From NCBI GenBank assembly GCA_001515945.1, contig LOER01000016.1:310001-374000 (forward strand): 64,000 nucleotides of DNA, read 5' to 3'. Numbering within the stretch: position 1 is the stretch's first letter; each line of letters starts with the position of its first letter. This DNA comes from Desulfitibacter sp. BRH_c19 (GTDB lineage Bacteria > Bacillota > DSM-16504 > Desulfitibacterales > Desulfitibacteraceae). The position numbers and the translations under genes are program-made. Shown here one piece after another: positions 8,197 through 63,804 of this stretch. Under the pieces are notes generated by a model. It was not told the origin of the DNA and did no database searches. It saw only the letters and a program-made list of their open reading frames with translations.

Positions 8197-8298
8197 CTTA
8201 AAACAAAACTTGGCTTGCGCCAAGTCCTTAGACGCAGGCGCAAGCCTTAGTCTTTGTGAATACTATCTACCTTGTTTGAACTTATACTTCTGATAGTA
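8197..8298 (+). repeat. Structured intergenic repeat D, copy 1 (without hairpin insertion)
   Basis: This 102-bp segment is repeated almost exactly at 63645-63804, where a 58-bp insertion splits it. It contains a perfect 10-bp stem (GGCTTGCGCC at 8212-8221 with GGCGCAAGCC at 8237-8246) and a second stem (TACTATC with GATAGTA) near its end. The copy at 63.7 kb keeps the first stem with paired base changes. Confidence 0.85.
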
Positions 8299-28771: not shown

Positions 28772-29010
28772 AAAAACCCCTCATCTTTAAGGACGAGAGA
28801 TTCCCGCGGTACCACCTTATTAGGATTGAAAGTATTTTAGAATACCCTCTTTCTTATTCTTTGAATAACGGCAAGACTACCGTCCCTTTTTACTAATTTC
28901 AAAAGAGTTGTTCACAGGTGATCTTCAATAGTGTTCTTATCTGGCTCCCACCTGCCCAGAATCGCTGGAAAAACTATCACTATCTACTCTCCTGATCATT
29001 ACATGTAACT
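28772..29010 (-). promoter_or_regulatory. T-box riboswitch upstream of ileS
   Basis: The minus strand contains the T-box antiterminator sequence AAGGTGGTACCGCGG (complement of 28802-28816 and on), followed by a terminator (CTCGTC, loop, GATGAGGGG, TTTTTC) 35 bases before ileS. Upstream is a stem I with the typical distal loop region (CCAGCGATTCTGG, GGTGGGAG). A plausible specifier is ATT in ACACTATTGAAG, an isoleucine codon, though this reading is tentative. Uncharged tRNA-Ile should stabilise the antiterminator and switch ileS on. Confidence 0.93.
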
Positions 29011-54880: not shown

Positions 54881-54937
54881 CCTTTAGGGAAAACCGTTAT
54901 CCAGGGGCTTAGTACCAGTTATCTCCCACCTACTACC

Positions 54938-54980
54938 GTAGTTCTAGCATTGTGTTTTAGCAATGCGTAGAAATACTAGT
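54938..54980 (+). repeat. GTAG hairpin element H1
   Basis: GTAG, then the imperfect palindrome TTCTAGCATTG / CAATGCGTAGAA (one bulged G) and ATACTAGT. Followed by GCAGAGC. With H2 it forms a tandem pair with a 55-base period. Confidence 0.85.
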
Positions 54981-54992
54981 GCAGAGCCGCCA

Positions 54993-55036
54993 GTAGTTCT
55001 AGCATTGTGATTTTTGCAATGCGTAGAAATACCAGT
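54993..55036 (+). repeat. GTAG hairpin element H2
   Basis: Same 44-bp unit as H1 with a different loop (TGATTTTTG) and ATACCAGT at its end; preceded by CGCCA and followed by GCAGAGC. Confidence 0.85.
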
Positions 55037-55060
55037 GCAGAGCAAGAGGTGGGAGTCTTG

Positions 55061-55097
55061 GAGTGAAACTTGTCAACTTGTTGACATAGCTGAACCC
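55061..55097 (+). repeat. E module 2
   Basis: GAGTGAAACT, stem TGTCAAC / GTTGACA around TT, then TAGCTGAACCC. An almost exact copy lies at 57810-57846 on the other strand. Confidence 0.75.
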
Positions 55098-55219
55098 ATG
55101 CAAGGCTAGTGGTAGTTAGTCATCGGATAAATAATTGCCCGCAAAGTATATTACTGATAGTTAGTTGCTGTATCCGGAAGGTGAATTAGTCAGATAGTTA
55201 GCAGACTAATGTGTTGAAA

Positions 55220-57400: not shown

Positions 57401-57575
57401 TAACTGACTAACTTGGCGTCCATAAAGGACTGGTATTTCTACGCATTGCAAAATGCGCAATGCTAGAACTACTGGCGTAATACAAGTGGGAGTACAACGC
57501 CAACTAAGCCATTCATTCGTAGCTCTAAAATTCAGCGGGAGTAGAATCTCCCCCTGAATTAAGATCTTACTTCAA
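57401..57575 (-). repeat. Structured intergenic repeat B, copy 2
   Basis: Read on the minus strand: TTGAAGTAAGATCTTAATTC, then a 13-bp stem with one mismatch (AATTCAGGGGGAG with CTCCCGCTGAATT), GAATGGCTTAGTTGGCG, CTCCCACTTG, then hairpin H3 between two CGCC copies, and CCAAGTTAGTCAGTTAA. Its first bases overlap the stop of the 49-codon ORF. Confidence 0.75.
57429..57472 (-). repeat. GTAG hairpin element H3
   Basis: Same 44-bp unit, loop CGCATTTTG. It is flanked by CGCC direct repeats (57415-57418 and 57474-57477 as GGCG on the plus strand). Confidence 0.85.
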
Positions 57576-57846: not shown

Positions 57847-57870
57847 AAGACTCCTATCTTCTAGCCTTGC

Positions 57871-57914
57871 ACTAGTATTTCTACGCATTGCAAAAATCTC
57901 AATGCTAGAACTAC
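57871..57914 (-). repeat. GTAG hairpin element H4
   Basis: Same 44-bp unit, loop AGATTTTTG, ending ATACTAGT and followed by GCAAGGCTAGAAG. Preceded by GCGACC, as H1 is by CTACC. Confidence 0.85.
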
Positions 57915-58009
57915 GGTCGCAAGTGGGAGATAAGTGGCGCTACGTCCCTGGATAACGGTTTCTAGAACTCAGATGGAGTCAAAACTCCACCTGAGTTCTA
58001 GAAACCTGT

Positions 58010-62579: not shown

Positions 62580-63458
62580 TTATTTAGACGTATGCAGGAT
62601 TTTTTCTGTTCCAATCTTCTCCTTGAAATTTACTATGTCTTCCTGGTCTTTAAACAATATATTAAGGGTTTTATCCATGGTATCCTCGGTAACCTCTTCA
62701 CTATTCAATAATTTTAAAGTATTTGCCCAATCGAGGGTCTCCGATATAGAGGGTAGTTTTTTAGCCTCGAACTGTGTCCTAATTGCATAAACAGTACTTG
62801 AAACTTGGAGCGCTAATTTATCAGTTATTCCTGGTACTTTTGCTTTAATTATAGAAAACTCCTTATCAATAGATGGAAAATCAATGTGTAGAAACACACA
62901 TCTTCTTTTTAATCCATCTGACAGCTCTCTTTCAGCATTACTTGTAAGAACTACTATAGGTTTATGCTCAGCTTTGATAGTTCCAAGCTCAGGTATGGAT
63001 ACCTGGAAATCGGATAATAATTCAAAAAGAAATGCTTCAAATTCTTCATCAGTTTTATCTATTTCATCAATGAGCAGAACAGTCTTTCTTGGTAAGCTTA
63101 TGGCTTTTAGAAGAGGTCTTTCAAGCAAGAAATCTTTAGAAAATAAGTCCTGGTTTATAGTACATTCTCCTGAATCATTTCTTGATATTTGTATTTGTAA
63201 AAGCTGTTTTTGATAGTTCCATTCATAGAGTGCTTTCTGCTCATCAAGACCTTCGTAACATTGAAGTCTAATTAAATCCGTATCAAAAACACTTGCCAAC
63301 ACTTTAGCAAGCTCAGTCTTTCCAACCCCCGGGGCTCCAGTAACAAGTAGAGGCTTTTCAAGCTTGAGAGCTATAAATACAGATAGAACCAGGTTGCCGT
63401 CAGTTATATAACCTTCTGCCTCCATGGCCCTCCTAAGATTAATCAAATTCAATTCCAT
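62580..63458 (-). CDS. MoxR family AAA+ ATPase
   Basis: About 292 residues. Walker A VTGAPGVGKTELAKVLA, Walker B LLIDEIDKTDEEFEAFLFELL in part, sensor LTSNAERELSDGLKRRC (arginine finger region). MoxR ATPases pair with VWA proteins, and the downstream gene is one. The start at ATG 63458 has a G-rich binding site seven bases upstream; ATG 63473 is the alternative. Upstream is repeat sequence, so the promoter is unclear. Confidence 0.88.
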   Translation of the reverse strand: MELNLINLRRAMEAEGYITDGNLVLSVFIALKLEKPLLVTGAPGVGKTELAKVLASVFDTDLIRLQCYEGLDEQKALYEWNYQKQLLQIQISRNDSGECTINQDLFSKDFLLERPLLKAISLPRKTVLLIDEIDKTDEEFEAFLFELLSDFQVSIPELGTIKAEHKPIVVLTSNAERELSDGLKRRCVFLHIDFPSIDKEFSIIKAKVPGITDKLALQVSSTVYAIRTQFEAKKLPSISETLDWANTLKLLNSEEVTEDTMDKTLNILFKDQEDIVNFKEKIGTEKILHTSK

Positions 63459-63644: not shown

Positions 63645-63804
63645 CTTAAAACAAAACTTGGCTTCCGCCAGTAGTTCTAGCATTGTGTCTTTTGCAATGC
63701 GTAGAAATACCAGTACTATAGTGCGCCAAGTCCTTAGACGCAGGTGGAAGCCTTAGTCTTTGTGAATACTATCTACCTTGTTTGAACTTATACTTCTGAT
63801 AGTA
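63645..63804 (+). repeat. Structured intergenic repeat D, copy 2 (with hairpin insertion)
   Basis: Same as 8197-8298 except for a 58-bp insertion (63670-63727). The 10-bp stem is kept with changed bases: GGCTTCCGCC (63660-63669) with GGTGGAAGCC (63743-63752). Shares CTTAGTCTTTGTGAATACTA and the rest of the 3' part with D1. Confidence 0.9.
63671..63714 (+). repeat. GTAG hairpin element H5 (insertion in D2)
   Basis: Same 44-bp unit, loop TGTCTTTTG; the inserted segment ends ACTATAGTG and is bounded by CGCC on both sides. Absent from D1. Confidence 0.9.

Follow-up and report, generated by a model that had tools for sequence, protein, structure and literature searches.

Insertion of a 49-59 bp hairpin unit into other small repeats of Desulfitibacter sp. 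BRH_c19 and related genomes

Across six genomes, a hairpin unit (H) is lodged at four positions and in both orientations within the dispersed repeat D, in the unrelated repeat E, and in head-to-tail arrays. Together with two orthologous pairs of filled and empty loci, this distribution bears out the original prediction that the hairpin moves as a unit. Our preferred reading, to which we give about an even chance of being correct, is that H is a non-autonomous hairpin that enters D and E without target duplication, that D inserts in the same manner beside terminators, and that a putative Y1/REP-like enzyme moves them in trans.

The D1/D2 pair in the window

The window, i.e. the whole stretch of 64,000 nucleotides that was analysed from the genome of Desulfitibacter sp. 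BRH_c19 (G000), contains the following features.

8199-8298, plus strand: D1, a D element of 100 bp without H (single CGCC: GGCTTG-CGCC-AAG)
63647-63804, plus strand: D2, an H-filled D element (TAAAAC...GATAGTA) of 158 bp
63666-63723, plus strand: H unit inside D2 (CGCCAGTAG...ACTATAGTG), 58 nt of hairpin and mini-palindrome
63724-63727, plus strand: CGCC of the D target, kept 3' of H in D2, as judged from D1 and further empty copies of D
54892-55132, plus strand: core of the E element (GTTATCC...GGATAAA), with approximate outer limits; its CTCCCACCT/AGGTGGGAG loop contains two H units
54933-54987, plus strand: first H unit of the tandem pair in the E loop, with the diverged 5' end CTACCGTAG
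54988-55043, plus strand: second H unit of the tandem pair in the E loop, 56 nt
57419-57477, minus strand: H3, an H unit within an E-like repeat, immediately followed by CGCCAAG
57864-57919, minus strand: H4, an H unit (CGACCGTAG...GCAAGGC) located within an E element

D2 exceeds D1 by exactly 58 bp, which correspond to H: D2 reads GGCTTC-(CGCCAGTAG...ACTATAGTG)-CGCC-AAG, and its counterpart in D1 is GGCTTG-CGCC-AAG. This exact difference confirms that both are copies of the same dispersed element, D2 with 58 extra hairpin bases, as had been proposed from a first inspection of the window; the coordinates proposed then were nearly right, apart from starts that lie two bases off the real ones at 8199 and 63647. 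The placement of H3 between two CGCC copies followed by AAG was likewise correctly recognized. A CGCC on both sides of H, as had been noted for D2 and H3, is present at this site of D (site 1) and at H3 but missing from most other insertion sites. The 17-base core of H has five exact copies in the window, with 0.15 matches expected by chance, and a sixth match with three mismatches at 62881 is likely due to chance. Genome-wide searches of the 48 contigs yielded 56 matches for the H query, 83 for the D/H query and 42 for the E query.

Anatomy, insertion sites and arrays of H

H is a unit of 49-59 bp with a CGCC of its own at the start and a small palindrome at the end. Its layout is CGCC-A, a hairpin of the GTAGTTCTAGCATTG...CAATGCGTAGAAATAC type (interrupted by one G-A mismatch and a single bulged G), CAGT, and a mini-palindrome that occurs as GCAAAGC, GCAGAGC, ACTATAGTG, CCTTTAGGG or CCCTTTGGG. 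The tetranucleotide GTAG is found in most H copies of G000 to G004, where it is mostly paired within the stem, and the copies of G005, a Desulfitobacteriaceae MAG, have GAAT or AAAA instead.

Individual D copies hold zero, one, two or several H units. Site 1 (TTG-H-CGCCAAG) is occupied in G000 and in the sister species G001 and G002, and site 2, on the opposite arm of the D palindrome, holds inverted H units in only two copies (L027, L028). Site 3 (GGCG-H-GAAGCC) was found in G005, and site 4 in G001 and G002, where it reads GTTG-H-CACTTA or, with shared bases, GTT-H-GCAC. The loop of E harbors H in G000 at CTTG-H-TAGAAG and CCTA-H-AAGAGG, and H is also located within E in G003 and G004, which belong to other lineages. 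CGCC or CACC adjoins H in three of the six contexts. The preferred site that had been postulated is partly supported: CGCC or CACC follows H immediately on its 3' side at D sites 1 and 2 and around H3, but other sequences do so at D site 3 (GAAGCC), at D site 4 (GCAC) and in the E loop (TAGAAG and AAGAGG).

The arrays are arranged head-to-tail with a period of 56 bp, and some of them reach contig ends. Those at contig ends are L095 (C5:1-385), L096 (C27:6741-7255), L097 (C37:1-173) and L111 (C10:42190-42448), and their real lengths probably exceed the assembled ones. In arrays within D, H units of the GCAAAGC type are placed 5' of the unit of the ACTATAGTG type, and nearly all site-1 units of G000 that adjoin CGCCAAG exhibit the ACTATAGTG end or close variants of it.

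Filled and empty loci

The comparison of the sister species revealed one orthologous pair filled in each direction. The filled locus L157 of G001 and the empty locus L175 of G002 are 93% identical over 1.5 kb with H as the difference; reciprocally, L149b of G002 is filled and the orthologous L208 of G001 is empty, the remaining D sequence being identical. In the tree of 51 D bodies, filled and empty copies are interleaved, and the state of H requires 15 changes; strongly supported branches of this otherwise weak tree force at least five of these. Both orthologous pairs can equally represent precise deletions between GCGCC or GCAC repeats, and for them as well as for D1 and D2 a gain of H, a precise loss between these repeats and gene conversion all fit.

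The most serious alternative is that filled copies gave rise to D1-like empty ones through slippage or deletion of the hairpin between the short direct repeats (GCGCC or GCAC) and that gains of H are rare. It agrees with the interleaved positions in the tree; moreover, H is bounded at sites 1 and 4 by repeats of 4-6 bp, and a deletion between them would produce exactly the observed empty sequences. Separate gains would nevertheless be needed for sites 2 and 3, for E and for the arrays; site 3 and E lack a flanking repeat for the deletion, and site 2 is confined to its two copies, with the nearest relatives of L027 being empty. As a general account, we regard loss as possible but rather unlikely, and the presence of H at new sites indicates that gains have taken place.

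If H spread among the copies of D chiefly through gene conversion or homologous recombination and not through transposition, its patchy occurrence at one site would be explained, and the common ACTATAGTG end of nearly all site-1 units in G000 is expected if a single insertion was copied around. The new sites, the inverted insertions, the copies in E and the 5' additions of GCAAAGC-type units in D arrays are left unexplained by this scenario, which makes it improbable as the main route.

Junctions and target duplication

Junctions without a duplicated target are those of L027 and of one pair of E elements. The empty relatives L016 and L019, which are closest to L027, read GGCTTC-CACCCGCG, and the filled L027 reads GGCTTC-CGCC...GCAAAGC-CACCCGCG, which represents an exact addition of 56 nt. 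Its left CGCC differs from the retained CACC of the target, and a duplication would have placed CACC there as well, barring a later mutation of that copy. In E, the empty L080 (CCTA-AAGAGG) and the filled L066 document a clean unit insertion with zero duplicated bases, and flanking repeats are absent from both the E site and D site 3. The predicted target duplication of 4-5 bases is not supported. Based on the junctions of L027 and L066/L080, the left CGCC is attributed to H, and at site 1 the one on the right is assigned to the D target. Since H begins with CGCC, an insertion directly 5' of CGCC would leave a new CGCC at its start and remake the preferred site, thereby allowing head-to-tail arrays to grow.

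The same junctions bear on the possibility that H belongs to the classical MITE-like elements and duplicates 4-5 bp of its target (CGCC or GCGCC). Repeats of this kind do exist, namely GCGCC on both sides at site 1, CCGCC on each side in L028, and GCAC on each side at site 4 in L157 and L149a. However, L027 has CGCC on the left and CACC, which belongs to the target, on the right; site 3 (GGCG-H-GAAG) and E (CCTA-H-AAGAGG) have no repeat; duplicated targets are lacking at all three of these places; and the ends of D are devoid of inverted repeats, so that we consider this explanation improbable.

Folding of H and insertion of D

The hairpin of H is well conserved. Among 42 distinct stems, 96.5% of the cells are paired and four pairs have changed on both sides. 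Single-strand folding of two H variants on the written strand resulted in z values of -3.1 and -4.3; a longer reverse-strand stretch of H with its flanks reached only -1.8. D folds with a z value of -6.5 into a long hairpin plus TACTATC/GATAGTA. Five pairs of its stem have changed on both sides, although one of these changes is due in part to the divergence of two D subfamilies; the pair adjoining the H site is mostly unpaired. The compensatory changes in both stems would suit domains of a functional structured RNA (D, E and H, with H as an optional arm), but the high copy number, the arrays, the inverted insertion, the presence or absence of both H and D at orthologous loci and the lack of an Rfam match render this very improbable.

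By inspection, the ends of D (TAAAACAAAAC and GATAGTA) are not inverted repeats. A strict terminator-like hairpin adjoins 25 of 67 right ends of D and three of 55 left ends, with a background of about 2%. Such intrinsic-terminator-like hairpins are often located at the GATAGTA end, in one orientation (window 8199-8298 and 63647-63804; L170-L199). The absence of D at an orthologous site was assessed on two clean pairs only, L151/L201 and L149a/L200, because other pairwise alignments were forced outside the flanks. In the cleanest case, L151/L201, the empty GAGCA-TAAAAAAC corresponds to GAGCA-(TAAAAC...GATAGTG)-TAAAAAAC. The repeated TAAAA could be read as a duplication; against this, the 5' TAAAAC is constant in that D subfamily and the 3' flank varies (CAAAA in L004). 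The insertion of D shows no clear target duplication, and its end TTTTA (reverse strand) resembles its T-rich target.

D also carries a second hairpin module, K (GACGAAC..GTTCTAATGTCGGCTATGCAGC..GCTGCGTTTTAGCCGAC), which has been inserted at another place of the element than H, behind TTTGTGAAT or CTAGTGAAT and independently of H, at L143, L146, L151, L116 and L197 of G001 and G002. A diverged D subfamily is nested within the E element at L086, L090, L092 and L093.

Proposed mechanism and search for a helper enzyme

According to our preferred reading, H would insert into the hairpins of other small mobile repeats (D and E), often directly 5' of CGCC, and D would likewise be non-autonomous and insert next to intrinsic terminators. 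Both D and H bear, at one of their ends, the motif next to which they are often found inserted. The combination of an end motif that mimics the target with the lack of a convincing duplication in both D and H follows the logic of single-strand Y1 elements, so that both may be moved in trans by Y1/REP-like (HUH) cleavage and joining of their folded ends. The H unit, its junctions, its various sites, its orthologous presence/absence and its conserved hairpin are observations; the enzyme class, the single-strand route and the direction of change at each locus are what we infer. A broader and more tentative extension is a nested, self-propagating system, in which target-mimicking hairpins of 50-60 nt and the ssDNA type (H and K) might colonise separate positions of a terminator-targeting host element, restore their site and extend arrays with every insertion, and be moved in trans by a non-adjacent enzyme.

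RAYT-like Y1 genes are present in all six genomes and account for most of their Y1 genes. All four Y1 genes of G000 are long, RAYT-like frames of 255-303 aa, and the only short TnpA was found in G001. Within 1.5 kb of the Y1 genes, at 19 loci with Y1 matches, neither H nor D gave a significant match, and none of the Y1 genes recovered from the six genomes was found to be a helper gene for them. Several RAYT-like genes have their own GGGGAC-type inverted repeats; those of the four G000 genes (L031-L034; GGGGAC.. or GGGGTCAGGCTTGACA..) are unrelated to H. An autonomous parent with the ends of D or H was not found, and the viral contigs and plasmids searched contained no match. The sole candidate for an autonomous D copy that emerged from the pairing of D ends (L220, contig C93 of G005) encloses housekeeping genes of the sdh type and really consists of two separate D copies. 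Rfam families gave no match for D or H; the only Rfam match in the window is a T-box leader (28786-29008, minus strand).

Relation to known mobile repeats

H resembles known small mobile repeats such as REP and BOX, yet its nesting and modularity are unusual. It shares with the REP/RAYT (TnpA_REP) system a small, intergenic, dispersed and sometimes grouped hairpin that contains a G-A mismatch and a bulge of one nucleotide and, in most copies of G000 to G004, GTAG at the foot of its 5' side (PMC3733652, PMC8266576). In contrast to REPs, the GTAG of H is largely paired in the stem and absent from the G005 copies, H has no adjoining RAYT gene, and it is nested in other repeats and forms regular head-to-tail arrays with a fixed junction. 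In the BOX repeats of streptococci (boxA-boxB(n)-boxC), a central hairpin module is present zero, one or many times in tandem, and repeats are inserted into each other (PMC3049150). The D flanks likewise enclose a variable number of tandem H units, a likeness of architecture; unlike the BOX module, H also enters the unrelated E and several different positions of D, once inverted.

The GC clusters of yeast mitochondria (GC42) are mobile palindromes of about 40 bp with orthologous presence/absence and cluster mergers (PMC4478555), but they are flanked by AG/ACT direct repeats, whereas H has no duplication at several sites, and they occur in another domain of life. Non-autonomous IS200/IS605 elements resemble D and H in the hairpins near the ends and in a motif at one end that is similar to the one beside the insertion (architecture: PMC6006769). 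Their insertion next to a fixed motif without target duplication may also apply to H, which shows no duplication in L027 and E and adjoins CGCC or CACC in three of six contexts. They differ in that the Y1 genes of G000 are longer and RAYT-like and that no autonomous parent with the ends of D or H was found. Our literature search, which covered sources other than subscription journals, found no paper on the D, H and E repeats.

How REPs, BOX modules and other very small hairpins spread has so far been poorly documented. H is a single hairpin observed at a number of different junctions; its unit boundaries are clean, and the sister species provide empty counterparts, which opens both the target rule and the enzyme to direct tests. 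It also illustrates that a second CGCC resembling a target duplication can stem from an element that mimics its own target.

A stretch of E with H (window 54892-55132; L122, L123) is 95% identical over 204 bp between G000 and G004 (Gracilibacter sp. BRH_c7a), and the metK genes of the two genomes are 69% identical. This near-identity relative to metK suggests that E and H have spread horizontally between the two lineages.
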